Part shown: positions 4,005-47,042 of the stretch, in pieces
How positions within the stretch are numbered: the stretch's first letter is position 1
Layout: every line of letters begins with the position of its first letter
Assembly: GCF_018524365.1 (NCBI RefSeq)
Contig: NZ_JAEKFT010000033.1
Span: forward strand, 1 to 49,696
Origin: Denitromonas iodatirespirans
GTDB lineage: Bacteria > Pseudomonadota > Gammaproteobacteria > Burkholderiales > Rhodocyclaceae
Direction of reading: 5' to 3'
DNA: 49,696 nucleotides
The notes under the pieces: model-generated
Told to the model about the DNA's origin: nothing
The model's input: only the letters and a program-made list of their open reading frames with translations
Databases searched by the model: none
Program-made: the position numbers and the translations under genes

Positions 4005-4031
4005 GGCGGACGCCGGCGGGAATCGACCCCC

Positions 4032-4197: not shown

Positions 4198-4203
4198 TAG
4201 ATC

Positions 4204-8123
<3,920 letters not shown>

Positions 8124-8127
<4 letters not shown>

Positions 8128-9083: not shown

Positions 9084-9102
9084 CACGGCGCGCTGGCGCC
9101 CT

Positions 9103-9309: not shown

Positions 9310-9317
9310 GTCGATTT

Positions 9318-11525: not shown

Positions 11526-12631
11526 CACGCCGCCCGGCCCGGCCCTTGGGCGAGGATCCGCTCCATGCCGGCCATCACCGTCAGGTTGGCTTCCTCCATG
11601 CGCGTCAGTGCATCCAGCGCGCCCGGCGCGTCACCGGCCAGGTAGCGCTCCACCGCGCGGCGGGCGTAGTCATGCACCGCCTTGTGCGGCGCTTCCATCT
11701 CGCGGTAGCCGGGCATGTTCGAGAAGGTCTCGCGCCCGTCACCCTCGTAGTACCACTGGCCCAGGCGGCATTGCGTCTCGTCCGGCACGTCGCCCGGCTT
11801 GAGGTCCGAGAGGCCGAGCAGCACCTTGTACACCTCGAGCTTGAGCGTCAGCTCCTCGACGTTGGCCAACTCGGCGCTGGCGATGCGCGAGGAACTGGCG
11901 ATGGTGCTCTGCATCATCTGCGACAGCCCCAGCAGGTGCTGCATGCTGCGCATGGCCGCCTCGCTCTCGGCGCTGTGGCTGGCGGCGTTGCCGGCGCCCA
12001 CCTCCATGATCTTGCGGGCATTGCCGGTCTCCTGCTGGATGCCGGTCACCAGTGTGCCGATCTCGGTGGTGGCCTTGGCGGTGCGTTCGGCCAGCTTGCG
12101 CACTTCGTCGGCCACCACCGCAAAGCCTCGCCCGGCCTCGCCGGCGCGCGCCGCCTCGATGGCCGCGTTGAGCGCCAGCAGGTTGGTCTGCTCGGCGATT
12201 TCCTTGATCAGCTGGACGATGCCGCCGATCTCGCCGGCGCGGCGCGACAGGTCCTCGACGCTCGCGCCGGCCACGCTGATGCGCTCGAACATGGCGTGCA
12301 GGTTGGCGGCGATCTGCTCGAAGGCGGCGCGGTTGGCGTCGGACTCGGCGGCCGCGGTCAGCGCCATGGCCGAGTCCTCGCCCAGCTGCGCGGAGAGCCC
12401 GGCGAAGGACTGGCGGATGCCGGCCAGCGACTGGCCGAAGCGCGGGATGTTGCCGGTCACCCCGTCGAGCAGCGCCTGGCGAGCGGCCATCGCCTGCTGC
12501 TGCGCCTGCGTCTCGGCCAGGCGCGCCTCGGCGTCGGCCAGAGCGCCTTCGAGGGCCGCCGTCCGTGTCTTCAATGCGCTGTTTTCGGCCTGCGCCTCGG
12601 CCAGTGCCTGTTTTGCCTTGAACCCGAACAT
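11525..12631 (-). CDS. Soluble methyl-accepting chemoreceptor with a C-terminal CZB-like domain
   Basis: A 368-residue protein without membrane helices. An N-terminal coiled coil (about 8-50) leads into the chemoreceptor signalling hairpin, with the conserved tip [20 protein letters not shown] and [18 protein letters not shown]. The C-terminus (about 265-365) resembles the CZB zinc-binding domain, with [10 protein letters not shown] and APHKAVHDY. The usual first zinc-ligand histidine seems to be replaced ([12 protein letters not shown]), so zinc binding may be altered. CZB receptors of known function sense zinc or hypochlorous acid. GGTGAGGAG lies 6-8 nt before the ATG. The gene is coupled to the globin GGDEF-EAL gene downstream. 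Confidence 0.9.
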
Positions 12632-24308: not shown

Positions 24309-27300
24309 ATGACCCAGCGCCTGCGAGAGATTCCCTATAACTACACCTCGTTCTCCGACCGCGAGATCGTGATCCGCCTGCTCGGCGAAGAGAGCTGGCA
24401 GGTGCTCGACGCCCTGCGCAGCGAGCGCGTCACCGGCCGCTCGGCGCGCATGCTCTACGAGGTGCTCGGCGACATCTGGGTGGTGCAGCGCAACCCCTAC
24501 CTGATGGACGACCTGCTGGCCAACCGCGACCGCCGCGCTGCGCTGGTCGGCGCATTGCGCCACCGGCTCAACGAGATCGACAAGCGGCGGGTCGATTCGC
24601 AGGCCGAGGATGAGGATCGCAGCGGCAAGGTCGAGCAACTGGTGCGCGCCGCACGCGAGGCGGTGGCGCGCTTCGAAGTGCAGTTCCAGGAAACCCTCGA
24701 CCTGCGCCGCCAGGCCACCCGCGTGCTGTCGCGCCATACCCGCAAGGACAACATCTGCTTCGACGGCCATGCGCGCGTCTCGCATGTGACCGACGCCACC
24801 GACTGGCGGGTCGAGTACCCCTTCGTGGTGCTGTACCCGGACACCGAGGCCGAAATCGGCCATCTGGTGCGCGACTGTATCGAGCTGGGCCTGACCATCA
24901 TCCCGCGCGGGGGCGGCACCGGCTACACCGGCGGCGCCGTGCCACTGGATGCGCGCTCGGTGGTGATCAACACCGAAAAGCTGATCGACATCGGCCCGGT
25001 CGAGGACAAGGTGCTGCCCGGCCTCGACGGCCCGATGCGCGAACCCTACGCCACCATCCGCACCAGCGCCGGCGTGGTCACCGCGCGTGTGGCCGAAGCG
25101 GCGACGGCGGCCGGGCGCGTGTTCGCGGTGGACCCGACCTCGGCCTCGGCCTCCTGTGTCGGCGGCAACGTGGCGATGAACGCCGGCGGCAAGAAGGCCG
25201 TGCTGTGGGGCACCGCGCTCGACAACCTGGCCTGGTGGAAGATGGTCACGCCGGACGGCACCTGGCTGGAGGTCGAGCGCCTCGACCACAACTTCGGCAA
25301 GATCCACGAGCAGGAGGTGGTGCGCTTCCGCCTCAAGCGCTTCGACGCCTCGGGCACCAAGCCGCTGGGCGAGGAAATCCTCGAAATGCCCGGCGCGGCC
25401 TGTCGCAAGGACGGCCTGGGCAAGGACGTGACCGACAAGTTCCTCGGCGGCCTGCCGGGCGTGCAAAAGGAAGGCACCGACGGCATCATCGTCGCCGCGC
25501 GCTGGGTGCTGCACAAGATGCCGCCGGTGACCCGCACGGTGTGCCTGGAGTTCTTCGGCCAGGTGCGCGAAGCGGTGCCGGCCATCGTCGAGATCACCGA
25601 CTACTTCAAGCCCGGCGGCGAAGGCCACGGCCTGGGCGTGCAGCTGGCCGGCCTGGAGCACCTCGACGAGCGTTACGTGAAGGCGGTCGGCTACACCACC
25701 AAGGCCAAGCGCCACGGTCGGCCCAAGATGGTGCTGGTGGGCGACATCGTCGGCGCCGACGAAGACGCGGTGATGAAGGCCGCCTCGAGCGTGATCCGCA
25801 TGACCAACGCGCGCGGCTCGGAGGGTTTCATTGCCGTCTCCGACGAGCAGCGCAAGAAGTTCTGGCTGGACCGCTCGCGCACCGCCGCCATCTCGCGCCA
25901 CACCAACGCCTTCAAGATCAACGAAGACGTGGTGATTCCGCTGCCGCGCATGGGCGACTACTGCGACCACATCGAGCGCATCAACATCGAGCTGTCGACA
26001 CAGAACAAGCTCGCCCTGTGCGATGCGCTGACCGAGGTGCTGCTCGGCGACCTGCCGCTGCACGCCCATGATGCCGACATCGACCCGGCCGAGATCATCG
26101 GCGACCGCCGCCAGGCCGCGCTCGACTACGTGTCGCGCGTGCGCACCCGCTGGCAGTGGCTGCTCAATCACCTCGACACCCCGCTGGCCGAGGCCGAGGC
26201 GCGCTTCGACGAGTTCGGCATCGTTGCCGGCGAGCTGACCAACACCGCGACCGACCCGGTGCTCTTCCACCGTCTGCAGGACTACTCGGTGCGCACCTCG
26301 TGGAAGAACGAGCTGCGCGCCCGCCTGGTCAAGATCTTCGACGGCGACGTGTTCCGCCCGGTGCGCGAAAAGATCGACGCCACCCATGCGCAGGTGCTGC
26401 GCGGCCGCCTCTTCGTGGCCCTGCACATGCATGCCGGCGACGGCAACGTGCACACCAACATCCCGGTCAACTCCGACAACTACGCCATGCTGCAGACCGC
26501 CAACGAGACGGTGGACCGCATCATGGCCATCGCCCGCGCGCTCGACGGCGTGATCTCCGGCGAACACGGCATCGGCATCACCAAGCTCGACTTCCTCACC
26601 GATGAGGAAATGGCCAGCTACTGGACCTACAAGCAGAAGGTCGACCCCGAAGGCCGCTTCAACCGCGGCAAGCTGCAGCGCGGCGCCAACCTCGACCGCG
26701 CCTATACCCCCAGCTTCGGGCTGATGGGCCACGAGTCGCTGATCATGGAGCAGACCGAGATCGGCGAGATCGCCCACGACATCAAGGACTGCCTGCGCTG
26801 CGGCAAGTGCAAGCCGGTGTGCTCCACCCATGTGCCGCGCGCCAACCTGCTCTACAGCCCGCGCAACAAGATCCTGTCCACCTCGCTGCTGGTCGAAGCC
26901 TTCCTCTACGAGGAGCAGACCCGCCGCGGCGTGTCGCTGGCGCACTGGGCCGAGTTCGAAGACGTGGCCGACCACTGCACCATCTGCCACAAGTGCGAGA
27001 AGCCCTGTCCGGTGGATATCGACTTCGGCGATGTCTCGGTCAAGATGCGCAACCTCTTGCGCAACCAGGGCAAGAAGTCCTTCAACCCCGGCAAGGCGGC
27101 CGCCATGGCCTTCCTCACCGTCAAGGACCCGGCGACCATCAAGCTGATGCGCAAGGGCATGATCGAGTGGGGCTACAAGGCGCAGCGCTGGGCGCACAAG
27201 GCCGCCCGCTCGCTCGGCCTGATCCAGTCGCAGGTCACGCAACCGCCGGCCACCTTGCACAAGGCACCGATCAAGGCGCAGGTGATCCACTTCATCAACA

Positions 27301-28199
27301 AGCCGATGCCGGGCAACCTGCCCAAGCGCACCAGCCGCGCGCTGATGGACATCGAGGACGACAAGGTCATCCCCGTCATCCGCAATCCGCAGGTGCCGGC
27401 CGAGCAGTCCGAGGCGGTGTTCTATTTCCCCGGCTGCGGCTCCGAGCGCCTGTTCAGCCAGGTCGGCCTGGCCACCCAGGCCATGCTCTATCACGTGGGC
27501 AGCACCACCGTGTTGCCGCCGGGCTACCTGTGCTGCGGCTATCCGCAGACCGCCGCCGGCGAGGAAGACAAGGGCCAGAAGATCACCACCGACAACCGCG
27601 TGCTCTTCCACCGTGTCGCCAACACGCTCAACTACCTCGACATCAAGACCGTGGTGGTGTCCTGCGGCACCTGCATGGATCAGCTGATGAAATATCAGTT
27701 CGACAAGATCTTCCCCGGCTGCCGCCTGATCGACATCCATGAATACCTGATGGAAAAGGGCGTCAAGCTGGAGGGCATTACCGGCCAGAAGTACATGTAC
27801 CACGAGCCCTGCCATGCGCCGATGAAGATCTACTCGGGCATCAAGGTGGCCAACGAGCTGATGGGCACGCGGGTCGACCTCAACGACCGCTGCTGCGGCG
27901 AGTCGGGCACCCTGGCCGTGGCACGGCCGGATGTGTCCACCCAGGTGCGCTTCCGCAAGCAGGAAGAGATGGAAAAGGGCGCCGCCGCGCTGCGCGAGGG
28001 CGATGCCGACGCGCAGGTGAAGATCCTCACCTCCTGCCCCAGCTGCCTGCAGGGCCTGTCGCGCTACGCCAACGACGGCGGCGGCATCGAGGCCGACTAC
28101 ATCGTGGTCGAGATCGCCAAGCACCTGCTCGGCGACAACTGGCTGCCCGAGTATGTCGACCGCGCCAACCACGGCGGCATCGAGCGGGTGCTGCTGTGA
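24309..28199 (+). CDS. DUF3683 FAD/FMN-linked oxidoreductase with iron-sulfur and CCG domains
   Basis: A 1296-residue fusion of four parts. First is an N-terminal DUF3683 region (about 1-150). A GlcD-like FAD-binding half follows ([18 protein letters not shown], then [20 protein letters not shown]) with its C-terminal oxidase cap. The next part is a dicluster ferredoxin domain with C828 onward ([11 protein letters not shown]) and C890 onward ([12 protein letters not shown]). Last is a GlpC/HdrB-like C-terminal half with CCG motifs ([36 protein letters not shown] and CPSCLQGL). Related enzymes oxidise 2-hydroxy acids such as glycolate or D-lactate and pass electrons to quinone; the substrate here is not known. 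The gene is monocistronic with a strong terminator. TAGAAT at 24267 is a possible -10. Confidence 0.93.
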
Positions 28200-28245
28200 A
28201 CGCCCGCCGCTGAAGCGCTGACCGCCTCAGCCACCCATCCCGCCA

Positions 28246-28272
28246 GGGGCCGCGATCGCGGCCCCTTTTTTT
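28246..28272 (+). terminator. Rho-independent terminator of the DUF3683 oxidoreductase gene
   Basis: A perfect 20-bp palindrome (28246-28265, arms GGGGCCGC/GCGGCCCC around GATC) is followed by seven T residues (28266-28272). It lies 47 bp after the stop. Confidence 0.93.
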
Positions 28273-28340
28273 GTTTTGTGCGGAACGCCGCCCCGGGCTT
28301 TCGGAATGCCAAATACCTCACACAAGGGCCGCCTCAGTCT

Positions 28341-28383
28341 ATGACTTTAGTCATGTATGTTGAATAGCTCACGGTCGTAGAAT
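28341..28383 (+). promoter_or_regulatory. Palindromic site and -10 of the ThDP/citrate synthase-like operon
   Basis: ATGACTTTAGTCAT (28341-28354) is a perfect 14-bp inverted repeat with a 2-nt centre. TAGAAT (28378-28383) is a good -10. Start of transcription near 28390 would put the palindrome centre at about -42, over a -35 region that has no consensus. That is the usual place for a class II activator. It also lies 141 bp after a terminator, so the operon below has its own control. The regulator is unknown. Confidence 0.55.
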
Positions 28384-28419
28384 CGCGCCTGAACTACCGT
28401 GCGCAGCGAAACAACCCAG

Positions 28420-28468
28420 GGCTCTTTCCATGACGTGCTTATACGACGTTTGGCTAGGAACAAGAGCC
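28420..28468 (+). ncRNA. Possible stem-loop in the 5' leader of the ThDP operon
   Basis: GGCTCTT (28420-28426) and AAGAGCC (28462-28468) are perfect 7-bp arms around 35 nt in the predicted 116-nt leader. The stem can be extended by TCC/GGA with a 2-nt bulge. It may affect mRNA stability or translation. It matches no riboswitch class that I recognise. Confidence 0.25.
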
Positions 28469-28505
28469 ACTCTGAACATGACACGTTACAAGGACTGACA
28501 CACCC

Positions 28506-30281
28506 ATGGATCGCCCGAATCCTGCCGCCTTCATGCGGCCCGAAGACACCCACAAGCAGCCGGACGTCGCCGATCTGATCGTCGCCCACCTGGAACAGAT
28601 CGGCGTCGAGTACGTGTTCGGCGTCCCCGGCGGCGCCATCGAACCGATCTACAACGCGCTCGCCCGCAGCGCCCGCCGCAACGGCCCGCGTGTCATCACC
28701 ACGCGCCATGAGGCCGGCGCCGCCTACATGGCCGAAGGCTATGCGCGCGAGAGCGGCCGGCTCGGCGTGTGCATCGCCACCTCCGGCCCCGGCGCCACCA
28801 ACCTGATCACCGGCGTCGCCTGCGCCCACGACAACGGCATCCCGCTGCTGGCCATCACCGGCCAGCCCAAGCTGACCGCCTTCGGCCGGCGCGCGCTGCA
28901 GGAATCGGGCTGCACCGGCGTCAACACGCTGGGCATGTTCCGCCACTGCACCGGCTACAACACGCTGCTGTCCCATCCGGAACAGGCCGAGCCGAAGATC
29001 GTCAGCGCGCTCGCCTATGCCTTCCAGAACCGCGGCGCCGCCCACCTGACCATCCCGGTGGACATCCAGCGCAGCGCCGCCCCCGCCGAATGGCAGGGGC
29101 CGGCCAAGGGGCTCCGGCGCATGCTGCGCTCGCCCGCGCTGGTGGACGAAGACGCCGTGCAGGCCGTCTTCGACGCCCTCGGCGCAGCGCGCCGGCCGGT
29201 CTTCCTGCTCGGCGGCGGCGCCGGCGGCGCGGTGGACCTGTTCCTGCAGCTCATCGAGCGTCACGGCGCCGCCTTCGTCACCACGCCGGACGCCAAGGGT
29301 TTCGTGAACCCCGCCCACCCGCTGTATCACGGCGTCTTCGGTTTTGCCGGCCACCCGCAGGCGCGCGAGTTGCTGACGGCCGATCCCGACCTGATCGTCG
29401 CGGTCGGCGTGAGCCTGGGCGAGTGGACCAGCGCCGGCTGGAGCGATGTGCTGCTGAACGATCGCCTGATCCACATCGACAGCCGGGCCGAGCATCTGCA
29501 ACGCTCATCCATGGCACGCCTGCAGGTGTCGGGCAATCCGGTCAGCGTCGCCCACCGCCTGCTGGCGATGGACGCGGCACGCCCCGTCACGCCGGCGCCG
29601 GCGGCCCCTGTGAAGAGCTCACGCCTGCCGGCCACGCCGGCACACATCGCGCCGGGCGTGCGCCCGCAGGTGTTGATGGAAGTGCTCTCCGAGCGCTGCC
29701 CGCCGACCGTCAACTTCGTCGCCGACCCCGGCAACAGCACCGCCTGGGCCATCCACCACCTGGAACTGAACTGTCGCCGCCACCGCCCGGCGAGCGCCGA
29801 TGCTCGCCATCAACGCAACCCGGCGGCCAGCTGGTTGCGCGTACTGATGGACTTCGCCCCCATGGCTTGGGCGATCAGCTGTTCCATCGGTGTCGCACTG
29901 GCACGACGCGGCCGGCCGGTGGTCTGCCTCACCGGCGACGGCAGCTACCTGATGAGTGGCCAGGAAATCACGGTCGCCCAGACCGAGCGCCTGCCGGTGC
30001 TGTTCGTGGTGCTCAACGACGCCTCGCTGGGCATGGTCAAGCACGGCCAGCGCCTGGCCAACGCCGAGCCGATCGGCTTCCATCTGCCGACCATCGACTT
30101 CGCCGCACAGGCCCGCGCCCTGGGCATCGAAGGCATCGCCATTCGTTCGGAAGCCGAACTGGCCGCCCTCGATCTGGTCGGCCTGCTCTCGCGCAACGGC
30201 CCCACGCTGCTCGACGTGCGCATCGACACGGAGCAGGAGCCGCCCATCCGCATGCGCCTCGAAGCGCTGGGGACGGTGTGA
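28506..30281 (+). CDS. ThDP-dependent enzyme of the acetolactate synthase-like superfamily
   Basis: A 591-residue thiamine-diphosphate enzyme with the three-domain layout of the acetohydroxyacid synthase/2-hydroxyacyl-CoA lyase group. The activating glutamate is E69 in TTRHEAGAAYMAEGYAR. The ThDP/Mg motif is GDG at 477-479 with N504 (GDG-X24-N). FGVPGGAIEPIYNAL opens the PYR domain. These enzymes make or break carbon-carbon bonds next to a carbonyl; the substrate cannot be read from the sequence. A role as the main IlvB is unlikely because no small subunit follows. Instead the stop overlaps the start of a citrate synthase-like gene (TGATG), and a second such gene follows. AAGGA lies 11 nt before the ATG. 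Confidence 0.88.
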   Translation: MDRPNPAAFMRPEDTHKQPDVADLIVAHLEQIGVEYVFGVPGGAIEPIYNALARSARRNGPRVITTRHEAGAAYMAEGYARESGRLGVCIATSGPGATNLITGVACAHDNGIPLLAITGQPKLTAFGRRALQESGCTGVNTLGMFRHCTGYNTLLSHPEQAEPKIVSALAYAFQNRGAAHLTIPVDIQRSAAPAEWQGPAKGLRRMLRSPALVDEDAVQAVFDALGAARRPVFLLGGGAGGAVDLFLQLIERHGAAFVTTPDAKGFVNPAHPLYHGVFGFAGHPQARELLTADPDLIVAVGVSLGEWTSAGWSDVLLNDRLIHIDSRAEHLQRSSMARLQVSGNPVSVAHRLLAMDAARPVTPAPAAPVKSSRLPATPAHIAPGVRPQVLMEVLSERCPPTVNFVADPGNSTAWAIHHLELNCRRHRPASADARHQRNPAASWLRVLMDFAPMAWAISCSIGVALARRGRPVVCLTGDGSYLMSGQEITVAQTERLPVLFVVLNDASLGMVKHGQRLANAEPIGFHLPTIDFAAQARALGIEGIAIRSEAELAALDLVGLLSRNGPTLLDVRIDTEQEPPIRMRLEALGTV

Positions 30282-31045
30282 TGAGCGAGCGCATCCATAC
30301 CCGCATCTGGGACGAGTCGCCGGACCCCAGATCGCCGTTTCTCGGACAGAACGTTCGCCTCTTCGGCTACGACTACTACGGCGATCTGGTGGGCCGTGCC
30401 CGTTGGGTGGAGATGCTGTGGCTGCTGTTCACCGGCGAGGCACCGACCCCGGACCAGTCGGCACTGCTCGAACGCCTGGCCGTCGCGCTGGCCAACCCGG
30501 GCCCGCGCGACCCGTCGGTGCACGCGGCCATGTGCGGCGGCGTCGGCGGATCGCCTCCGGCCGCCAGCCTGGTGGCGGCACTGGCCGTCGCCAGCGGAGA
30601 TCACGGCGGCGCCGGCGAACTGCGACGCGCCATGAGCGCCTGGGCGACCGCCGGGGAGGCATTCGATCGCGTCACGGACGCGCTCACCGACCAAGCCGAC
30701 GACACCGGCATGTGGCCCGGCTTCTCGCCCTTGAGCCACCATACCGCGCACAGCGTTCTCGACTGCCTTGCCGCGCTGGGCCGGGCCTCGCTGGCACGCC
30801 GACTCACCTGGCTGCACCAGCACGAGCCATCGCTCTCCGACGCCGCCCGATGCGGCCTGAGCCTGACCGGCGTGGCGGCCGCCGCACTCACCGACCTGGG
30901 CATGGACCTGGATCAGGGCGAGGCGCTGTTTCTGTTGTTGCGCCTGCCCGGCACGCTGGCCCATGCCGTCGAGCAATCGGGCAAGCGCCACAAGCAGTTC
31001 CCGTTTTTCGCCCTCAACGACATCACAAGGAGTGACGACGCATGA
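30281..31045 (+). CDS. Citrate synthase/citryl-CoA lyase-like protein, first paralogue
   Basis: A 254-residue protein covering the small citryl-CoA lyase-type citrate synthase fold. The N-terminal part fits the family (NVRLFGYDYYGDLV, then EMLWLLFTGEAPTPDQSALL). The centre fits the region after the catalytic loop (DPSVHAAMCGGVGG, then LAVASGDHGGAGELRRAM). The C-terminal helix is LLLRLPGTLAHAVEQSGKRH. At the place where family enzymes have DHGP or DHxxN with a catalytic histidine, this protein reads RDPSV, so that histidine seems to be missing. The ATG overlaps the ThDP gene stop (TGATG) and the end overlaps the second paralogue (ATGA). Strict coupling suggests a complex with fixed ratios. The reaction is unknown. 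Confidence 0.78.
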   Translation: MSERIHTRIWDESPDPRSPFLGQNVRLFGYDYYGDLVGRARWVEMLWLLFTGEAPTPDQSALLERLAVALANPGPRDPSVHAAMCGGVGGSPPAASLVAALAVASGDHGGAGELRRAMSAWATAGEAFDRVTDALTDQADDTGMWPGFSPLSHHTAHSVLDCLAALGRASLARRLTWLHQHEPSLSDAARCGLSLTGVAAAALTDLGMDLDQGEALFLLLRLPGTLAHAVEQSGKRHKQFPFFALNDITRSDDA

Positions 31046-31845
31046 GCCGAGTCGATCCGAAAGACTATGAAGCCCGAATCGGCCATGTGACGACCCGTCT
31101 GGGCGGCTTTTTCCCCGGCCACAGCGCACGCGTTCGCGGCCACGACCTGCACGAATTCACCGTCGACAAGCGCTGGTTCGATCTGTATCTGTTCTCGCTG
31201 ACCGGACGCGAGCTTGGCGACAACGAGCGCGACATGCTCGAAGCACTGTGGACCTTCACCAGCTATCCCGATCCGCGCATCTGGAACAACCGCGTCGCCG
31301 CACTCGCCGGCTCGAGCCGTGCCTCCGCCGCGCTGGGCATCGGCGCCGCCATCGCCGTGACCGATGCGGACATCTACGGCCTGGGGCCCTGTCTGGCCGC
31401 CTTCGACTTCATCGGCGCGCATGTCGCCGACTCCGACGAGGCGCTCCTGCAGGCCGCGACCGACAAGCTGCGCCGCGAACGGCGGCTGGGCGGCTACGGC
31501 CGGCCGGTGGTGGCCGAGGACGAGCGGATCGCCCCCACCATGGCCAAGGCGCGGGCCCTGGGCCTCGCCGACGGGCCGCATGTGCGTACCGCTTTCCGCC
31601 TAGACGCGCTGCTCGCCGAAGGCCGCTGGCGGATGCGCATCAATTACGCGGCGCTGTGCTCGGCCCTCCACCTCGATATCGGCCTGACACGCGACGACTA
31701 CGAGTGCATTTTGGCCACCATTTTTCTCGGCGGAATGCCGCCGGTATGGAAAGAACACAACCAGGAAGCGGCGGGCGGGTTGTTTCCGATTCCGGTCGAT
31801 GCCGTGCATTATGACGGTGTCACACCCCGGCGTTGGCCGGACTGA
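31042..31845 (+). CDS. Citrate synthase/citryl-CoA lyase-like protein, second paralogue
   Basis: A 267-residue protein that lines up end to end with the preceding one. RGHDLHEFTVDKRWFDLYLF and SLTGRELGDNERDMLEAL match its N-terminal part. YPDPRIWNNRVAALAGSSRA matches its DPSV region, and ILATIFLGGMPPVWKEHNQE matches its end. The usual catalytic histidine is again replaced (PDPRI). GGYGRPVVAEDERIAPTM stands where citrate synthases have GFGHRVYKxxDPR, with R for H. The usual PNVDFYSG aspartate region reads RINYAALCS. AAGGAG lies 9 nt before the ATG. A heteromer with the first paralogue is the simplest reading. It could be a non-catalytic CoA-binding partner or a new lyase. Confidence 0.78.
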   Translation: MSRVDPKDYEARIGHVTTRLGGFFPGHSARVRGHDLHEFTVDKRWFDLYLFSLTGRELGDNERDMLEALWTFTSYPDPRIWNNRVAALAGSSRASAALGIGAAIAVTDADIYGLGPCLAAFDFIGAHVADSDEALLQAATDKLRRERRLGGYGRPVVAEDERIAPTMAKARALGLADGPHVRTAFRLDALLAEGRWRMRINYAALCSALHLDIGLTRDDYECILATIFLGGMPPVWKEHNQEAAGGLFPIPVDAVHYDGVTPRRWPD

Positions 31846-31920: not shown

Positions 31921-31949
31921 GTTCGCTTGTGCTTGACTTCGGGGTTTGC

Positions 31950-34049
31950 ATGAAACATTTTCGTGCGCTGATCGTGGGCGGTTCGATCCTCCTGGCGGGC
32001 AGTGCGTCGGCAGCCACCGACGCCTTTGCCGACCCGGACCTGCTGGCCGCCTATGGCGGTACGGACTTCGTGAGCATTGCCACCGGCAGCCGCCAGCCCC
32101 TGCGGCGCGCGCCGGCCGTTGCCAGCGTGGTCACTCGGGACGACATCCTCGCACTGGGCGCGCGCGATCTGACCGAGGCGCTGGCAGGTGTGCCGGGGCT
32201 TCATATCGCCTACTCCAGCCTGGTCTTCAACCCCATCTTCAGTTTCCGCGGCAATTTTTCGCAGTTCAACCCCCAGGTGCTGCTGCTGATCAACGGCATC
32301 CCGATGACCAGCGTCTTCGCCGGCGACCGCGGCAGTGTCTGGGGCGGCATGCCGGTGGACAACATCGAGCGAATCGAAGTCATCCGCGGCCCCGGCAGCG
32401 CGCTCTACGGCGCCGATGCCTTCACCGGCGTGATCAACGTCATTACCCGCAGCCCCAACGATTGGCAGGGCACGGATGTCGGTGTGCGCACCGGCAGCTT
32501 CAACACGCGCGACGTCTGGCTCAATCACGCAGGCACCGCCGGGCCGGTCAAGCTCGGCTTCTATGTCGGCTGGCAAAAGACCGACGGCGACGACCAGACG
32601 ATTGCCTACGACGCCCAGACCGGGCTCGATCGATTGTTCAGTACTCAAAGCTCGCTCGCCCCCGGCCCGATGTCACTCGGCCGGGAGGGACTCGATCTCG
32701 GGCTCGACCTGATCATGGGCGACTGGCAATTGCGCGCCGCCTTGAAAGACTACAAGGATGTCGGGATGGGGGCCGGCGTGGCCAACGCGCTGGACCCGGC
32801 CGGCCGCGGGCGCAATGAGCGGTGGACCGCCGATCTGACCTGGCATCCGCAAGACCTGGCGCCGGACTGGGATGTCACGGTACAGGCCCACTTCCTGCAC
32901 ATGAAGGACTTCTCCGACATCCAGCTCTTTCCGCCCGGCGCCTTCGGCGGCGCCTTTCCCGAAGGCATGCTGGGCCAGCCGGACAAATGGGAGCGCCATG
33001 GCGGTCTGTCGGCCGCCGCGGTGTATACCGGCTGGGCCGACCATCGCGTGCGCATCGGCGGTGGCTACCAGAAGCTCGACCTCTACAAGGTGCGCGAGAC
33101 CAAGAACTACCGCTTCGTCGGACTGACGCCGACGCCACTGCCCGGCGGCCTGACCGAAGTGTCGGCGGAAGACGCCTTCATGCGCCCGCACACCCGCCAC
33201 AACCGCTACCTGTACGCCCAGGACGAATGGAGCCTGTCACGCAACTGGACGCTGACCTCGGGCGTACGCCACGATGCCTACTCCGATTTCGGCCACACCA
33301 CCAATCCGCGCCTCGCCCTGGTGTGGGACGCCGGCTACACGGTCAGTGCCAAGCTGCTCTATGGCCGCGCCTTCCGCGCCCCGTCCTTCGTCGAGCAATA
33401 CAACGTCAACAACCCGATCGCGTTGGGCAACCCGGATGTCGCTCCGGAAAAGATGGAAACCTGGGAAGCCGCCCTGACCTGGCAGCCCGACCAGGACACC
33501 CTGCTGTCGGCCAACCTCTTCCAGTACGCCATCCGCGACACCCTGCGCCAGGTGCCCAACAGCAACCCGACCACCGGGTCGACCGCACAGAACACCGGCC
33601 GCGTGGACGGCAAGGGCCTGGAAGTGGAGTTCAGCTGGCGCGCCGACCCCTCGCTCAAGTTCAGCGGCAACTACGCCTACCAGTACAGCAGCGACCGCGA
33701 GACCGGCAAGAACCCGGGCAACGCGCCCCGCCAGACCGCCTACCTGCGCGCCGACTGGCGTCCCGCCGACGGCTTTGTCTTCACGCCGAGGCTGCGCTGG
33801 GTGGCCGACCGCAGCCGGGAACCGGCCCGTCCCAATCAAACCGCGGACACCCGTTCCCCGCTCTCCGACTACGTCGTCCTCGACCTCACCGTCCGCGCCG
33901 AAAATGTCCTCAAGGATGTAGACCTGTCCTTGACGGTCAACAATGTCGCCGATGCCGCGGCCTACGAGCCCAGCCAATCCCCCGGCCAGCAAGACGACTT
34001 CCCCCTGCCGGGCCGCACATGGCTGCTGTCCGGGACGCTGCGCTTTTGA
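31950..34049 (+). CDS. TonB-dependent outer-membrane receptor
   Basis: A 699-residue receptor with signal peptide (MKHFRALIVGGSILLAGSAS, cleavage near ASA). The plug domain (about 45-165) shows APAVASVVTRDDILALGARD, then LLLINGIPM and IERIEVIRGPGSALYGADAF followed by TGVINVITR. A 22-strand barrel ends in the usual aromatic residue (WLLSGTLRF). The substrate is unknown; many relatives carry siderophores, cobalamin or other large ligands. The start at 31950 places the signal peptide correctly. It heads an operon with a substrate-binding protein 17 bp downstream and a sensor kinase 15 bp beyond that. No TonB box was identified. Confidence 0.94.
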   Translation: MKHFRALIVGGSILLAGSASAATDAFADPDLLAAYGGTDFVSIATGSRQPLRRAPAVASVVTRDDILALGARDLTEALAGVPGLHIAYSSLVFNPIFSFRGNFSQFNPQVLLLINGIPMTSVFAGDRGSVWGGMPVDNIERIEVIRGPGSALYGADAFTGVINVITRSPNDWQGTDVGVRTGSFNTRDVWLNHAGTAGPVKLGFYVGWQKTDGDDQTIAYDAQTGLDRLFSTQSSLAPGPMSLGREGLDLGLDLIMGDWQLRAALKDYKDVGMGAGVANALDPAGRGRNERWTADLTWHPQDLAPDWDVTVQAHFLHMKDFSDIQLFPPGAFGGAFPEGMLGQPDKWERHGGLSAAAVYTGWADHRVRIGGGYQKLDLYKVRETKNYRFVGLTPTPLPGGLTEVSAEDAFMRPHTRHNRYLYAQDEWSLSRNWTLTSGVRHDAYSDFGHTTNPRLALVWDAGYTVSAKLLYGRAFRAPSFVEQYNVNNPIALGNPDVAPEKMETWEAALTWQPDQDTLLSANLFQYAIRDTLRQVPNSNPTTGSTAQNTGRVDGKGLEVEFSWRADPSLKFSGNYAYQYSSDRETGKNPGNAPRQTAYLRADWRPADGFVFTPRLRWVADRSREPARPNQTADTRSPLSDYVVLDLTVRAENVLKDVDLSLTVNNVADAAAYEPSQSPGQQDDFPLPGRTWLLSGTLRF

Positions 34050-34066: not shown

Positions 34067-35101
34067 ATGCGCACCCCCGTCCACTCCCTGCTGGCCGCCG
34101 CCCTCATGCTGCTGGCCGCCGACGCGCCCGTATGGGCCGACAGCGGCCCCTCGCTCGCCCGCATCGAGACGCCGATCTTCCACAACCGCCTCTACACGCT
34201 GGCGGCCAACACCGAAACGATCCTCCCCAGCGCCGAGGCGGGGCGCATTGCCGTGGTCTATCCGGACCTGGGCGAACCCTATCGCAGCGTGTTCCAACAG
34301 ATCCTGTCGGGCATCGAGCTGACCGCCCCTGACCGGGTCGTCAGAGTCGCCCTGAGCAACCCGGAAACCCCCGGGCAACTGGCCGACACGCTCCAGAAGA
34401 ACGGTGCCACGGTGGTGATTGCGCTGGGCCGCCACGGACTGAAGGCCGCCAGCGCGCTGCCGGCCGCCTTCCCCGTGGTCGGTGGCGCGGTGCTCGCCGC
34501 ACCCGACGACGGGCCGGGCGCCACCGCCCTGGTCAGCCTCACCCCCGATCCCCGGCTCCTGTTCCAGCACCTGAAACAACTCGCCCCCTCGGTGCGCCGG
34601 GTGTTCACGGTGTACTCGGCTCGGCAGAACGACTGGCTGATCGCCCATGCGAAAAAGGCCGCCAAGGCGCAGGGCCTGGAGCTGGTGACTATCGAAACGG
34701 ACGACCTGCGCATCGCGCTGCAACGCTTCCGCGAGATCACCGAAAGCGCCGACCCTGCCCGTGATGCCATCTGGCTACCGCAAGACACGGCGGTGCTCGA
34801 CGACCAGGTCGTTTTGCCTTTTGTCCTTCAGCAAGCCTGGGATCGGTCGTTGATTGTCTTTTCCAGCACGCTGGCCCATGTCCGGCGCGGGGCGCTGTTC
34901 GCCCTCTATCCCGACAACATCGACATGGGCCGCCAACTGGCGACCACTGCGCTCGCCCTCGGCAACACCCCGGGCCAGGCCCGCACGGTGCAACCGCTGC
35001 GCGAAGTGCGACTTGCCCTCAACACCCGGACTGCCGGCCATCTCGGCATCACTCTGGAGACTTCGCTGAAAGATGTGGCCCTGCTCTTTCCCGTTCGCTG
35101 A
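34067..35101 (+). CDS. ABC transporter substrate-binding-like periplasmic protein
   Basis: A 344-residue exported protein (signal peptide MRTPVHSLLAAALMLLAADA, cleavage near VWA). The mature part resembles the periplasmic binding fold of the ABC substrate-binding family PF04392/DUF534: RIAVVYPDLGEPYRSVFQQI, then VVIALGRHGLKAASALPAAF and PVVGGAVLAAPDDG, then VRRVFTVYSARQNDWLIAHA. No permease or ATPase gene is present nearby. The gene sits between the TonB receptor and the kinase in one operon, so it may deliver a ligand signal to the kinase rather than feed a transporter. That role is inference. Confidence 0.85.
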   Translation: MRTPVHSLLAAALMLLAADAPVWADSGPSLARIETPIFHNRLYTLAANTETILPSAEAGRIAVVYPDLGEPYRSVFQQILSGIELTAPDRVVRVALSNPETPGQLADTLQKNGATVVIALGRHGLKAASALPAAFPVVGGAVLAAPDDGPGATALVSLTPDPRLLFQHLKQLAPSVRRVFTVYSARQNDWLIAHAKKAAKAQGLELVTIETDDLRIALQRFREITESADPARDAIWLPQDTAVLDDQVVLPFVLQQAWDRSLIVFSSTLAHVRRGALFALYPDNIDMGRQLATTALALGNTPGQARTVQPLREVRLALNTRTAGHLGITLETSLKDVALLFPVR

Positions 35102-35116
35102 CCCGACCGCGACCAC

Positions 35117-38100
35117 ATGCCGAGCCTGACCGCCCGCCTGCGCCGCAGCAGCTTCGGTGCCCAACTGAGCATGACCATCGCCGTCGGGCTGGTCCTGCTG
35201 GCCGTGGTCGCATCGGTCGCCAGCTCGCTGCGCGGCGACCGCCAGATCCGCGAGACGCTGCTGCGCCAGGGCGCCAGCGTGGTCGCCAGTCTGGCCGACC
35301 AGAGCCGCTTGGCGCTGCTGTCGGCGGCGCCCGAGAACGCCGCCGCCGCCATCGACGCCACCCTCTCCTTCCCCGACGTGGTGGCGGTGCAGATGTTCGA
35401 TGCCAGCGGTAAGCTGCTGCTGTCGCGGATCAAGGCCGGGGCGCCCACGCTGCTGCTGCCCGACGTGCCGCGCGACCCCTACGCCGGGACCGCCTCGGTC
35501 GAACTCGAAAACGACGACATCTGGAGCTTTACCGCCACGGTCCAGATCACCCCCGACGCCAATTCGCCGTTCTCCATGGACGAGACACCGCAGATCCAGC
35601 GCCTGGGCATCGTCCGCGTGGTGCAGAGCAAGAGCGTGATCAACGCCCTGCGCACCGACCTGTTCCTCTCCAACCTGGCCATCTCGCTGCTGTTCGCGGT
35701 CTTCTTCGTGGTGCTGGTCGAGATGCTCTCGCGCCGCCTCACCCGCCCGCTGCGCGAGCTGTCCCGCGCCATGTCCTCGGCCATGGCCGGCGAACGGGGC
35801 GTCCGCGCCAAGCTCGACGGCCCGCACGACATCGCCGACATGGAGCATGCCTTCAACCGCATGATGGAAGAGCTCGAAGGGCGCGAGCACGAGCTGATCA
35901 CCGCGCGCGACAGCGCCGTCGCCTACGCGGAGCTCAAGAGCCAGTTCGCCGCCACCGTCAGCCACGAAATCCGTACCCCGCTCAACGGCGTGATCGGCAG
36001 CCTCAACATGCTGCGCGCCAGCCGCCTGCCCGCCAAGGTGCAGCTGCTCACCGAAATGGCCTGGGATTCGGCGCGCCACCTGCTCGACATGGTCAACGGC
36101 GTGCTCGACTTCTCGCGTCTCGAAGCCGGCAAGATCGCGCTCGACGCCCAGCCGCTCGACCTGCGTCAGCTGGTCGAAGACCTGATCGATGCCCTCAGCC
36201 CGCAAGCCTACGAAAAAGGCCTGGAGCTGGGCCACCATATGGCCCCGGACCTGCCCGCCGCCTGGATCGGCGACGCCGACCGCCTCCGCCAGATCCTCAC
36301 CAACCTGCTCGGCAACGCCATCAAGTTCACCGACCGGGGCGAAGCCTGGGTGCGCATCGACCGCAGCGAGATGCCCGGCACCGGCGCCAGCGCCGTGCGC
36401 TTCACGGTCTGCGACACCGGCCCGGGCATCGACCCCGCCCTGCAGGGACGCATCTTCGACTCCTTCACCCAGGGCGACGCCTCCAGCACCCGGCGCCATC
36501 CGGGCAGCGGCCTGGGCCTGGCCATCAGCCGCCAGCTGGTCGAGTTGATGGGCGGCACCATCGCGCTCGACAGCGCCCCCGGCCAGGGCAGCCGCTTCAC
36601 CGTCACCCTGCCGCTGCAGGCCGCCCCGGCTGCCGCGACGCCGCCGCCCGCGCCGATCGCCGCCGGGCTGCGCATCCTGGTGATCGAAGACAGCGCCATC
36701 TGCCGCGACTACCTCGACACCGAACTGGCCCTGCAAGGCGCCCGCACGGTGATCTGCCCCGCCCCCCGGCTGGCCGAGCAGGCCCTCGTCACGCCGGACG
36801 GCGACCCGCTGCCGGTCGACCTGGTGCTGGTCGACGGCGCCGTCGCCGCGGCCGATCTGCAAAAACTGCGCAAGAGCGCCGCCTGCGCCTCGGCACGCTG
36901 GGTGCTCATGGCGCCGCTGGCCCGCTTCGGCGACGAAGACGACCGCTACTGGAGCACCACGCTGGCCAAACCGCTGCGCCGCTCCCGGCTGTCGGGCGTG
37001 CTGCGCCTGCTCGCCGACCCCACGGCCGAGCTGCCGGCCGCCGTGCCCGACGCCGTCGGCAGCTTCAAGGTCCTGGTGGTCGACGACAACCGGACCAACC
37101 AGGTGGTGGTGCGCAGCATGCTCGAGATGCTCGGCCTGACGGTGGAGCTGGCCGGCGACGGCAAGGCCGCCCTCGCCGCCCATGCCCGCGACGGTTGGGA
37201 CCTGATCCTGATGGACTGCCACATGCCCGGCATGGACGGCAACGCCGCCACCCGCGCCATCCGTGAGCGCGAGCAGATCACCGGGCACCACACCCCGATC
37301 ATCGCCATGACGGCCGACACCGAGCGCGACGACATCGCACGCAGCCTCGACGCGGGCATGGACGACCACCTCGCCAAGCCGCTCACCCTCGACACCCTCG
37401 CCGCCACGCTGCGCCGCTGGTTCGACCGGCCCTTTGCCCTGCGCGCCCCGGACGCCACCACCGACGCCCTGGAAACACGCAGCCACATCGTCGACCCGAC
37501 CGTGCTCGAACGCCTGCGCGATGCGCTCGGCGGCGCCATCGACAAGGCCATCGGGCCCTTCCTCGAAGACATGCCGCAGATCCTCGCGGCCCTGCAGACG
37601 GCGGCCACCGCCGGCGACCTGCCGGCGCTCAAGACCAACGCCCATCAAATCAAGGGCGCCGCCGGCAACCTCGGCGCCTGGACCCTGGCACAAAAGGCCG
37701 AGACCCTGGAGCTCGAACTGAACGACCCGGCGCTCGACGCCGTCGGCCTCGCCACCGATCTGTCCGCCGAGTTCAGCCGCGTCGCCACCGCGCTGCGCGA
37801 CTTCCTGCCCGAACCGCTGGCCAACGCCCCCGTCCCGACCGATGCCGAAGCGCGCGTGCTGGTCGTCGACGACGACCGCAGCACCCGCTCCGCCCTGCGC
37901 TATGCCCTCGAACTGAACGGCTTCATGGTGGACGAAGCCGACGCCGGCGCCTCCGCCATCGACCTGGTCGCGCGGCGCAACCCCGACCTCGTCCTGCTCG
38001 ACGCCGTCATGCCCGGCGCCGACGGCTTCGCCACCTGCACCCGGCTCAAGGAGCTGCCGCAGGGCAAGGACATCCCGGTGCTGATGATCACCTCGCTCGA

Positions 38101-39598
38101 CGACCGCCACTCCATCGAGCGCGCCTTCGCCGCCGGCGCCAGCGACTACATCACCAAGCCGCTGCATCTCAACGTCGTCGTCCAGCGCGTGCGCCGCACC
38201 ATCGATGCCAGCCGCTCCGAGCGCCATGTGCGCCACCTGGCCTACACCGACACCCTCACCGGCCTGCCCAACCGCGCGCAATTCCAGGAGCACCTGCAAC
38301 GCCAGCTCGATGCGGCCGCCGAGCACAACAAGCTGCTCGCCGTGCTCTTCCTCGACCTCGACCGCTTCAAGTTCGTCAACGACACGCTCGGCCACGAAAT
38401 CGGCGACCGCCTGCTCAAGACCGTCGGGCGCCGCATCACCCACAGCGTGCGCGCCGGCGACTGCGTGGCCCGCCTGGGCGGCGACGAATTCACCGTGGTG
38501 CTGGAAAACCTCGGCTCGACCACGGTCGCCGCCGCCGTCGCCAAGAAGATCGCCACCGACCTGGCCGAACCCTACGTGGTCGACGGCCACGACATCTTCG
38601 TCACCGCCAGCATCGGCATCGCCCTCTATCCGCGCGACGGCACCGACCTGAGCACGCTGCTGCGCCATGCCGACACCGCGATGTACCGCGCCAAGCACTC
38701 CAAGCACAGCTTCGTTTTCTACGAAGACGCCATGGAGACCAGCGCCAGCGAACACCTGCGCCTCGAGAGCGACCTGCGCCACGCGGTCGAGCGGCGCGAG
38801 TTCGAACTGCACTACCAGCCCGAGATCGATGCCCAGAGCGGCCGCCTGGTCGCCGCCGAAGCCCTGGTGCGCTGGCGCCACCCCACGCGCGGCCTGCTCG
38901 GTCCCAACGAATTCATCCCCATCGCCGAAGAGACCGGCCTCATCCTGCCCATCGGCGAATGGGTGCTGAGCGCCGCCTGCGAGCAACTCAGGTCCTGGCG
39001 TGCCGACGGCCACGGCGTGCGGGTGGCCGTGAACTTCTCCGGCCAGCAGCTGCAGGACGAGCAGATCGCCGCCACCGTCGAACGCGTGCTCGACGAATAC
39101 GGCGTGGTCCCCGACGATCTCATCGTCGAGCTCACCGAAAGCGTCTGGATGGAGCGTCAGGGCGAGGCCATCGACAACCTCTACCGCCTCAAGCGCCTCG
39201 GCATCCGCCTGGCCATCGACGATTTCGGCACCGGCTACTCCTCGCTCAGCTACCTCAAGCGCATGCCGGTCGACATCCTCAAGGTCGACCGCAGCTTCGT
39301 CACCGATCTGGGCGGCGCGTCGAGCGGCGCGGACGCCGACACCGATGTGGCCATCGTGCGCGGCATCGTCGCGCTGGCGCACAACCTCGACCTCGAAGTG
39401 GTGGCCGAAGGCGTCGAAACCCAGGCCCAGCGCGACTTGCTGAAAACCATGGGCTGCGACCTGATCCAGGGCTACCTGATCAGCAAGCCGCTACCCGCCG
39501 AGGCCTTCACCACCCGCTTCCTGCATGACGCGGCCGTCCGGCCGGAAGAGCCGGCCGCACGCTGCGCGGCCAAGAGCCGGCGCAGCGTGCCGGGCTGA
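35117..39598 (+). CDS. Hybrid histidine kinase with receivers, HPt, GGDEF and EAL domains
   Basis: A 1493-residue membrane protein. Two helices (about 17-38 and 188-212) flank a CHASE8-like periplasmic domain, followed by HAMP. HisKA has H283 (VSHEIRTPLN) and HATPase has DTGPGID and GSGLGLAIS. Receiver 1 is divergent (D573 in LVLVDGAV), receiver 2 is typical (D700 in LMDCHMPGMDG), the HPt has H843 (AHQIKGAAG) and receiver 3 has D962 (LLDAVMPGADG). GGDEF is canonical (RLGGDEF) with an RxxD inhibitory site (RAGD) five residues before it. EAL is canonical (EALVRW, DDFGTGYSSL, AEGVET). One polypeptide therefore carries phosphorelay, c-di-GMP synthesis and breakdown. It is the last gene of the operon. 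Confidence 0.93.
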   Translation: MPSLTARLRRSSFGAQLSMTIAVGLVLLAVVASVASSLRGDRQIRETLLRQGASVVASLADQSRLALLSAAPENAAAAIDATLSFPDVVAVQMFDASGKLLLSRIKAGAPTLLLPDVPRDPYAGTASVELENDDIWSFTATVQITPDANSPFSMDETPQIQRLGIVRVVQSKSVINALRTDLFLSNLAISLLFAVFFVVLVEMLSRRLTRPLRELSRAMSSAMAGERGVRAKLDGPHDIADMEHAFNRMMEELEGREHELITARDSAVAYAELKSQFAATVSHEIRTPLNGVIGSLNMLRASRLPAKVQLLTEMAWDSARHLLDMVNGVLDFSRLEAGKIALDAQPLDLRQLVEDLIDALSPQAYEKGLELGHHMAPDLPAAWIGDADRLRQILTNLLGNAIKFTDRGEAWVRIDRSEMPGTGASAVRFTVCDTGPGIDPALQGRIFDSFTQGDASSTRRHPGSGLGLAISRQLVELMGGTIALDSAPGQGSRFTVTLPLQAAPAAATPPPAPIAAGLRILVIEDSAICRDYLDTELALQGARTVICPAPRLAEQALVTPDGDPLPVDLVLVDGAVAAADLQKLRKSAACASARWVLMAPLARFGDEDDRYWSTTLAKPLRRSRLSGVLRLLADPTAELPAAVPDAVGSFKVLVVDDNRTNQVVVRSMLEMLGLTVELAGDGKAALAAHARDGWDLILMDCHMPGMDGNAATRAIREREQITGHHTPIIAMTADTERDDIARSLDAGMDDHLAKPLTLDTLAATLRRWFDRPFALRAPDATTDALETRSHIVDPTVLERLRDALGGAIDKAIGPFLEDMPQILAALQTAATAGDLPALKTNAHQIKGAAGNLGAWTLAQKAETLELELNDPALDAVGLATDLSAEFSRVATALRDFLPEPLANAPVPTDAEARVLVVDDDRSTRSALRYALELNGFMVDEADAGASAIDLVARRNPDLVLLDAVMPGADGFATCTRLKELPQGKDIPVLMITSLDDRHSIERAFAAGASDYITKPLHLNVVVQRVRRTIDASRSERHVRHLAYTDTLTGLPNRAQFQEHLQRQLDAAAEHNKLLAVLFLDLDRFKFVNDTLGHEIGDRLLKTVGRRITHSVRAGDCVARLGGDEFTVVLENLGSTTVAAAVAKKIATDLAEPYVVDGHDIFVTASIGIALYPRDGTDLSTLLRHADTAMYRAKHSKHSFVFYEDAMETSASEHLRLESDLRHAVERREFELHYQPEIDAQSGRLVAAEALVRWRHPTRGLLGPNEFIPIAEETGLILPIGEWVLSAACEQLRSWRADGHGVRVAVNFSGQQLQDEQIAATVERVLDEYGVVPDDLIVELTESVWMERQGEAIDNLYRLKRLGIRLAIDDFGTGYSSLSYLKRMPVDILKVDRSFVTDLGGASSGADADTDVAIVRGIVALAHNLDLEVVAEGVETQAQRDLLKTMGCDLIQGYLISKPLPAEAFTTRFLHDAAVRPEEPAARCAAKSRRSVPG

Positions 39599-45884: not shown

Positions 45885-47042
45885 ATGTCACCTCCCTTCA
45901 AGATCGCCACTTTGTTCGCCGCCCTTGCCTTTCTTGGCACCGGATGTGCAAACGCCGATTCAACTCGATTCGTCTACGAACCGTTCGTGCCCGGCGGCAA
46001 GCCCTTTCCCAAGGACGTCGAGCGGCCCGATCTTGCGCTGCCGCTGCCGCCGGGAGCCGTGAGACGCACCAGTGATGGCAATCCGAAGGATGAGAAGAAC
46101 CGCCTTGTCCTGGATGCCGAGTTCCTCAACCGCGCCCTGGATACACCATCACCGCAACCCTGGGTCTGGGAGCGGTATGGGCAGTTTTTCCGGATGGCAA
46201 AGCCCGAAGTCAAAGCGCAGTTCTGGGAGCAGTTCCGCGCCCACCTGCGCCGTGGCGGGCCGCCCGATGCGCAGGAGCTGGCCAGCTTCATCGAACACGT
46301 GAAGAAGAACATGGTGTTCGTCGAAGGCGGCAGCTTCTGGTTCGGGGATTGGGGAGCGCGCGAGGGACAACCCGGTCCGGTCACCGGAGACGACAACAAC
46401 AAACCGCCGCAGCATGTGACGGTGAGCAGCTTTTCGATTTACCGGACGCAGGTGACTTATGGCGACTATGACGTCTATTCGCGCGCGACGGGCGGAAAGT
46501 TCTTGGCGGACGGAGAGAGTATTGTTCTCGAATTCCGCTACCCAGACTATCCAGTATGGAGTTCACGCTGGGATGACGCGAAGAACTACTGCCAATGGCT
46601 GGCCAAGGTCACTGGAGAACCCTTTGATCTGCCCACAGAAACACAATGGGAATACGCCGCAAGGGACGGTGGAAAGGAGATCCATTTTGCAGGTCCTCAT
46701 CCATTCGACTGGGATGCACTGGAACAACTTTTCAAGTCCAACAGGGGACGATCCGCCGGTCTCACAATATCGCTACCCGTTGGTAGCATGCTGTCAGGTG
46801 AACTAGGAATCGCTGATATGTCGGGAGCCGGCCACGAGTGGGTCAACGACTGGTATTCCCAAGACATCTCCGGCCGAAGCGGGTCCGTCGATCCCAAAGG
46901 GCCTGCTCATGGAACCGAGCGTGTTGCCAGACCGGTCTCTGGGGGATTCGAAACTGTCGTCACGCGAAGAGGAAGGGATCCAAACAAACGCCTCGGTCCT
47001 GGATTTCGGTGCGTACTCAATAGCAGAACCGCTTGGCGCTAA
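45885..47042 (+). CDS. Lipoprotein with SUMF1/formylglycine-generating-enzyme-like fold; candidate type VI immunity protein
   Basis: A 385-residue protein. The lipobox LGTGC puts the lipidated cysteine at residue 21. Residues about 140-380 follow the SUMF1/EgtB/PvdO fold: MVFVEGGSFWFGDWG, then HVTVSSFSIYRTQVTYGDYD, then DDAKNYCQWL and LPTETQWEYAARDGG, then GAGHEWVNDWY and PGFRCVLNS. The cysteine pair used by true formylglycine-generating enzymes is absent, so the fold is probably used for binding. The gene is convergent with the VgrG-linked protein, 7 bp apart. Bases 46400-47042 are clearly poorer in GC than the rest of the window, hinting at transfer. The immunity role is inferred from position, lipidation and fold. 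Confidence 0.82.
   Translation: MSPPFKIATLFAALAFLGTGCANADSTRFVYEPFVPGGKPFPKDVERPDLALPLPPGAVRRTSDGNPKDEKNRLVLDAEFLNRALDTPSPQPWVWERYGQFFRMAKPEVKAQFWEQFRAHLRRGGPPDAQELASFIEHVKKNMVFVEGGSFWFGDWGAREGQPGPVTGDDNNKPPQHVTVSSFSIYRTQVTYGDYDVYSRATGGKFLADGESIVLEFRYPDYPVWSSRWDDAKNYCQWLAKVTGEPFDLPTETQWEYAARDGGKEIHFAGPHPFDWDALEQLFKSNRGRSAGLTISLPVGSMLSGELGIADMSGAGHEWVNDWYSQDISGRSGSVDPKGPAHGTERVARPVSGGFETVVTRRGRDPNKRLGPGFRCVLNSRTAWR

Follow-up and report, generated by a model that had tools for sequence, protein, structure and literature searches.

The T-A-B genes and their conservation

The window analysed here, a 49,696-nucleotide stretch of DNA from Denitromonas iodatirespirans (contig NZ_JAEKFT010000033.1, positions 1 to 49,696; assembly GCF_018524365.1), contains three tightly packed genes on its forward strand, termed T, A and B. 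T (28506-30281) encodes a 591 amino acid thiamine diphosphate (ThDP) enzyme with three Pfam TPP-enzyme domains, the nearest proteins in a PDB search being BbmA and CsmA. A (30281-31045; 254 amino acids) and B (31042-31845; 267 amino acids) encode proteins predicted to adopt the fold of citryl-coenzyme A (CoA) lyase; A has kept the histidine of the HGG motif and lost both the GFGH histidine and the NVD aspartate, and B has lost all three catalytic residues, with an arginine in place of the GFGH histidine. The genes are co-directional and overlap, as an earlier, first-pass annotation of this DNA had stated: the T stop codon (TGA, 30279-30281) shares 1 bp with the start codon of A (ATG, 30281), and the A stop codon (TGA, 31043-31045) shares 4 bp, ATGA, with the start of B (ATG, 31042). 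That annotation had begun the unit at 28341, which has to be corrected: the frame contains stops ahead of the ATG at 28506, and the site itself falls inside a palindrome upstream of T. So amended, the T-A-B unit is real and conserved.

Searches of 398 genomes from the phylum gave 12 matches to B, nine of which were strong besides that of the window itself. In all nine, the 3.7-kb stretch that was fetched also contained A and T, arranged as A-B-T in four genomes and as T-A-B in five; the weak matches were a lyase-like protein (L012) and, judged from its sequence, an unrelated one (L013). The same ten genomes were recovered with each gene (A, E <= 2.7e-97; B, E <= 1.9e-17; T, E <= 2.1e-88), the next A-like matches, which include ordinary lyases and citrate synthases, lying at 9e-34 and weaker and the next T match at 9e-61. 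At most six candidates for A and three for T were scored in each genome, such that weaker extra copies could escape, and the ten genomes represent five genera rather than ten independent cases. These results bear out the view that the genes form an uncharacterised, tightly linked unit; no description of it was found among the literature matches listed, which covered few subscription papers.

A scan of 84,980 species genomes identified 129 relatives of B, from which 79 loci were kept, forming with the window a set of 80. Because the pattern PD[PA]R[IL]WCN served to retrieve L015-L093, this motif is conserved among them by construction. The locus titles name beta-, gamma-, zeta- and deltaproteobacteria along with a few others, and no match to B was present among 72,556 plasmid records. 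A adjoins B at 77 of the 80 loci and T is nearby at 65; hence the linkage that the first-pass annotation had wished to see checked in other genomes is found there. The loci without A are L035, where B lies at a contig end, L048 and L059. In seven of the 15 genomes without a nearby T, an enzyme of the T clade is encoded elsewhere (44-84% identity). Two more show a fragment of T, one of 71 residues in G410, closing a contig that is judged by its length to be that of A-B, and one of 42 residues in G409; the remaining six have only weaker relatives (27-28% identity) or nothing. The A and B genes overlap at 63 of the 72 loci where their spacing was measured, and are no more than 30 bp apart at 69, with start codons picked by rule.

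Some individual loci are unusual. L206 (G425:C20:106500-126400) has an A-B-A-B-B tandem at 7377-11879, following T and an SDR gene, in a stretch with no labelled TonB receptor, and L015, from Pseudoduganella namucuonensis, carries at 1021-10777 two full T-A-B copies with a sulfotransferase gene, an SDR gene and two TonB receptor genes. Other loci have titles at odds with their closest relatives. The T of L065, from a bin titled Klebsiella pneumoniae that is probably mislabelled, has a close relative in the T of an uncultured gammaproteobacterium (L034); that of L035, titled Chloroflexi, is near-identical to the T of a Desulfuromonadaceae bin (L039), likely reflecting contamination or recent transfer. 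The B of L059, titled Cyclobacteriaceae, is nearest to the gammaproteobacterial B of L048.

The A-B pair and the ThDP enzyme

The closest known counterparts of A and B, with which they share fold and length, are the citryl-CoA lyase of Hydrogenobacter (CCL; PDB entry 6hxp), the top match of both in sequence and structure, and the lyase module of ATP citrate lyase. Profiles of the two families align with 6hxp over positions 23-243 of 266 for A (E = 2.4e-27) and 24-268 of 269 for B (E = 1.1e-16). AlphaFold2 models of the two proteins (A, pLDDT 93.0 and pTM 0.89; B, pLDDT 92.9 and pTM 0.86) also had 6hxp as their top PDB match in Foldseek (A, E = 3.2e-9 and TMq 0.64; B, E = 4.3e-10 and TMq 0.81), so that a citrate-synthase-type fold is predicted for both. 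The first-pass annotation had additionally held that A and B align with each other end to end; the shared fold stands, but BLASTP of one directly against the other gives a poor match, of 93 residues at E = 3e-4. Against family models, A narrowly exceeds the Pfam Citrate_synt cut-off (30.2 against 27 bits), B finds no counterpart in Pfam at E <= 1, and both fall far below the NCBIfam citryl-CoA lyase cut-offs (A, 70 against 261 bits; B, 28 against 245 bits). The one gene of this Pfam family detected in the window's genome at E <= 0.001 is an ordinary citrate synthase (460 bits) and not A, of which the genome has no second copy.

Conservation of catalytic residues was counted in an alignment with 6hxp that included 78 A rows, 80 B rows and 21 lyase-like controls, a single B row of 527 amino acids having been dropped from the original 81. 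The catalytic residues of citrate synthase are taken to be those numbered H274, H320 and D375. Their equivalents are found in 20, 21 and 20 of the 21 control lyases, respectively, 20 of which have the full set. By contrast, they are found in 36, 1 and 0 of the 78 A proteins and in 1, 0 and 0 of the 80 B proteins, with the complete set present in none of either family. The proposal of a paired citrate-synthase fold devoid of its usual catalytic residues is thus upheld, and the alternative that intact residues might lie at shifted positions finds no example in any A or B row. In the window, the H274 equivalent is retained in A (GDHGGAGE) and is isoleucine in B, and A has proline at the GFGH histidine and threonine at the NVD aspartate; the loss of these latter two residues had been ascribed to B only, which is correct for B but overlooks their absence from A. 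Similarly, the D-H pair had rightly been recognised as lost at RDPSV in A and PDPRI in B, the DHG histidine being replaced by proline in 73 of 78 A and all 80 B proteins, but this site is not that of H274. The only A protein with a GFGH histidine, at the zetaproteobacterial locus L020, is without the other two residues.

In B, the H320 position is occupied by arginine in 80 of 80 proteins (81 of 81 before the row was dropped), a residue that lies outside the pattern by which the loci were fetched, and the D375 position is mostly asparagine (42 of 80) or alanine (19). B also keeps Asp77, Arg79, Trp81, Asn83, Arg154 and Arg162; the first four of these fall within the fetch pattern, and are likewise invariant in the ten sequences found without it. 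A quick tree of 180 rows resolved A, B and the lyases as three separate groups (supports 95, 100 and 97), from which A and B appear to be two old, separately kept families; together they probably form a heteromeric pair. The identification of either as an ordinary citryl-CoA lyase is ruled out by the residues, the score cut-offs and the trees. A and B further differ from true lyases in their linkage to T and a receptor.

The ThDP motifs of T are intact. Its catalytic glutamate, present in all 90 aligned ThDP enzymes including T and the outgroups, is not type-specific. Judged by similarity scores, T is nearest to BbmA and CsmA rather than to acetolactate synthase: the window protein scores 278 bits against BbmA and 246 against CsmA, compared with 210 for the best acetolactate synthase, and a Desulfobacterota-type T scores 456 and 325 bits, compared with 256. 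BbmA and CsmA are likewise the nearest solved proteins of a gammaproteobacterial T. For the window T identity is low (33% to BbmA and 30% to CsmA), with a second T subclade reaching up to 44% to BbmA. A branch with a support of 97 separates the T proteins, both those linked to A-B and those elsewhere in the carriers, from 14 further ThDP enzymes encoded by those carriers. Identity as an ordinary acetolactate synthase is ruled out by the score cut-offs and this tree; the cut-off of TIGR00118 (biosynthetic acetolactate synthase; 538 bits) exceeds the 255 bits of the window T and the 310, 402 and 448 bits of three others, and that of NF035927 (ScyA-related TPP enzymes; 1000 bits) exceeds the 239 bits of the window T. 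The first-pass annotation's suggestion of a ThDP enzyme of the kind that acts on carbon-carbon bonds is supported.

The 'BpmA' of the literature is assumed here to be the BbmA of the PDB. In a 2025 report, CsmA and BpmA are called homologues of CybE, and the products of CybE-type enzymes are given as alpha-hydroxy-beta-keto acids (PMC12395478). Two precedents for the pairing of such an enzyme with a partner that uses acyl-thioesters are provided by CybE-CybF (PMC12395478) and CqsB3-CqsB1 (PMC7466098).

Receptor, binding protein and signalling genes

In the window, the row of genes beginning with T, A and B continues in one direction through 39598, with genes for a TonB-dependent outer-membrane receptor (31929-34049, forward strand; Pfam plug and barrel), a periplasmic binding protein of the ABC_sub_bind family (34067-35101, forward strand; PF04392) and a hybrid histidine kinase with receivers, Hpt, GGDEF and EAL domains (35117-39598, forward strand; Pfam). 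Within the window's own family, B is present in 17 of 150 genomes, the window genome included. Loci were fetched from 13 of the 16 other carriers. All 13 have T, 12 have the receptor, 12 the kinase/GGDEF/EAL gene and 11 the binding protein, and the last two genes occur together in 11; the gene order of the window is kept in about eight of the 13, by maps that partly hide genes, as mechanical calling of open reading frames (ORFs) left some masked by shadow ORFs.

ORF clustering of all 80 loci placed the TonB receptor within about 10 kb at 73, kinase or cyclic di-GMP (c-di-GMP) genes at 69 and the binding protein at 41. Where at least 8 kb was available on both sides (48 loci), T was found at 46, the receptor at 46, signalling genes at 45 and the binding protein at 28. 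Cluster profiles detected the receptor at 43, signalling genes at 41 and the binding protein at 27 of the 45 loci of at least 20 kb, compared with 0, 6 and 0 of 20 arbitrary control stretches, which were taken from six carrier genomes (the window's own, G000, and G017, G025, G042, G065 and G076) rather than a random sample of carriers, and with profiles that were built from the test loci themselves and therefore favour them. The unit is larger than the first-pass annotation held: receptor, binding protein and sensor or c-di-GMP genes travel with T, A and B. This shifts its likely meaning from a carbon pathway to the making and sensing of a small molecule. Chance as the source of the neighbourhood is ruled out by the co-occurrence in the 398 genomes and by the control stretches. 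The gene directly upstream of A is a TonB receptor at 50 of 68 loci and T at 10, and possible tailoring enzymes are represented by an SDR cluster (15 of 80 loci) and a sulfotransferase cluster (8 of 80).

The presence of signalling genes in the conserved neighbourhood also bears on the idea that A and B are a non-catalytic, ligand-sensing pair of pseudoenzymes, responding for example to CoA esters or citrate-like acids and controlling T or the signalling genes. The triad is gone from both proteins, and the conserved arginine, aspartate, tryptophan and asparagine residues of B resemble a binding site. However, a regulator of signalling genes alone would not need T, which accompanies A-B in all ten of the genomes found among the 398 sampled, and the usual upstream neighbour of A is the receptor gene and not that of the kinase. 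Such a regulatory role is thought rather doubtful, if still worth weighing.

TonB receptors mostly import metal complexes, and the NCBIfam models that the window receptor matches best, in no case reaching the cut-off, are of heme, siderophore and B12 types. It could accordingly be imagined that the unit is a metallophore cluster, its product being a small hydroxy-acid chelator, with the receptor importing the metal complex and the signalling genes reporting metal status. Several of the carrier genera comprise iron oxidisers or metal reducers, but others, such as Cellvibrio and Colwellia, are not known as metal specialists. Siderophore clusters likewise combine candidate synthesis genes with a TonB receptor, and are matched by genomes with the receptor and without the enzymes; unlike them, the shared ORF clusters here include no recognised siderophore synthesis enzyme, synthetase, permease or metal transporter. 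An identity as a metallophore cluster is considered distinctly improbable.

Receptor modules also exist apart from the enzymes. Relatives of the window binding protein are present in 17 other genomes of the 398, and of ten stretches fetched around them one came from a T-A-B carrier (G042). Six of the nine non-carriers (G037, G081, G040, G080, G104 and G132) have genes for a TonB receptor, a binding protein and a kinase in a row but no T-A-B beside them, and none of the six was matched by A, B or T in the searches of the 398 genomes; in G037 and G081 the module also holds GGDEF/EAL genes, and in G163, G070 and G304 the binding protein occurs without a labelled receptor. The receptors of G037, G081 and G040 (L234, L235 and L239) branch among those linked to T-A-B, in a tree that contains no unrelated receptors and from which proteins were dropped if their best single domain match was 350 residues or shorter, as happened to L236-L238. 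The modules at L234-L239, comprising TonB receptor, binding protein and kinase, represent a broader sensing module in their own right. Such a receiver-only pattern would be expected if some bacteria listened in on, or pirated, a shared compound, and is compatible with a sensing module of general use as well.

A candidate biosynthesis-and-sensing module

On balance, T-A-B quite possibly supplies the enzymes of a module that both makes and senses a small molecule, a reading to which somewhat less than an even chance is given. T would build a hydroxy-keto acid backbone, and A and B would bind or process the acid. The A-B heterodimer may have a ligand site, anchored by the invariant arginines of B, that holds the acid and perhaps an acyl-CoA. 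Should the pair be catalytic, the acyl group would come from the acyl-CoA, because the residues for an acyl-CoA enolate are gone, and the keto acid would supply the nucleophile, in which case those residues are not needed. The lost triad and the added arginine of B, which could hold a carboxylate, would fit such chemistry. The product would then be exported and come back in by way of the TonB receptor, possibly together with a metal; the periplasmic protein would capture it, and the hybrid kinase would convert its presence into altered c-di-GMP. LuxPQ-like sensors similarly have a binding protein gene adjoining that of a hybrid kinase, as seen at 34067-39598; the module of the window differs from them in having an ABC_sub_bind protein, an additional TonB receptor and c-di-GMP output domains.

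A more specific version of this proposal, in which the product is a new class of self-made signal or metallophore, made by a reversed-polarity, heterodimeric pseudo-citrate-synthase with a ThDP enzyme, feeding into c-di-GMP output and overheard by receiver-only listeners, is unlikely to hold in full. Were the product a signal or chelator, it would constitute a new chemical channel into c-di-GMP control spanning iron oxidisers, sulfate reducers, cable bacteria and polymer degraders, and would provide an instance of citrate-synthase fold chemistry independent of its textbook residues. With acetolactate synthase and citryl-CoA lyase as their nearest named families, the genes are easily misread as central carbon metabolism; they would instead be a separate, widespread system.

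A number of observations weigh against the biosynthesis-and-sensing proposal. BbmA and CsmA lie on the T side of the branch with a support of 97, but the order of the forks is unclear and the branches are long. The H274 equivalent of A varies (histidine in 36, tyrosine in 18 and phenylalanine in 11 of 78), which argues against the residue being catalytic. Of the 66 T genes of the loci, 25 run on the strand opposite to A-B; on this ground, and as the upstream neighbour of A is usually the receptor, T need not share one complex with A and B. The analysis gave no support to the hand-over of a substrate between A-B and T that the first-pass annotation had put forward, or to turnover of CoA thioesters. 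Signalling genes are common in general, with two-component or c-di-GMP genes in six of the 20 control stretches and SDR in one, and the remaining contrast with the controls is one that the test loci's own profiles enhance. SDR and sulfotransferase genes are missing from most loci. As receptor modules occur in genomes that have no T-A-B, and the receptor tree contained no unrelated receptors, the tie between enzymes and sensing genes may be looser than one of producer and receiver. Among the 18 ORF clusters common to at least five loci, no permease or exporter was recognised that could carry a compound into or out of the cytoplasm; one cluster (seven of 80 loci) is the ATPase of an ABC importer.

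That importer cluster, the position of the enzymes beside a TonB receptor and a binding protein, and the receptor modules lacking T-A-B would all suit a catabolic module, in which a scarce outside compound is sensed and taken up by the receptor and binding protein and then degraded by T, A and B, with A-B working as an altered lyase that depends on CoA and T as either a decarboxylase or a lyase. Enzymes that break bonds are known with both the ThDP and the citrate-synthase fold. Degradation is nonetheless judged unlikely: the lyase residues are absent from A and B, no permease or further degradation enzymes were recognised in the clusters of at least five loci, one of which matched no family, and the SDR and sulfotransferase neighbours, though a minority, are better suited to synthesis. 

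The T-A-B unit is set apart from the gene before it by a hairpin at 28245-28266 (forward strand). This resembles an intrinsic terminator closing the upstream FAD/FeS oxidase gene, with a 9-pair GC-rich stem followed by a T run, and is predicted from a consensus match. A palindrome, TATGACTTTAGTCATG (28340-28355, not assigned to a strand), lies 150 bp upstream of T and may be an operator. Palindromes like it, with up to three mismatches, precede T at 11 of 14 family loci, the window included; as the consensus was drawn from the window, L203 and L213, the test set is the other 11 family loci, of which eight match, with the sites of L205 and L207 being identical and hence not independent. Across all 80 upstream stretches, 16 such palindromes were seen, compared with approximately three in shuffled sequence. 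A sigma-70 scan found nothing, and no RNA elements or tRNAs were detected in the window at the thresholds used. The oxidase gene just before the unit (24309-28199) encodes a large fused FAD-linked protein with DUF3683, 4Fe-4S and CCG domains, and further downstream, at 45885-47042, the window encodes an FGE-sulfatase (formylglycine-generating enzyme-like) domain protein.

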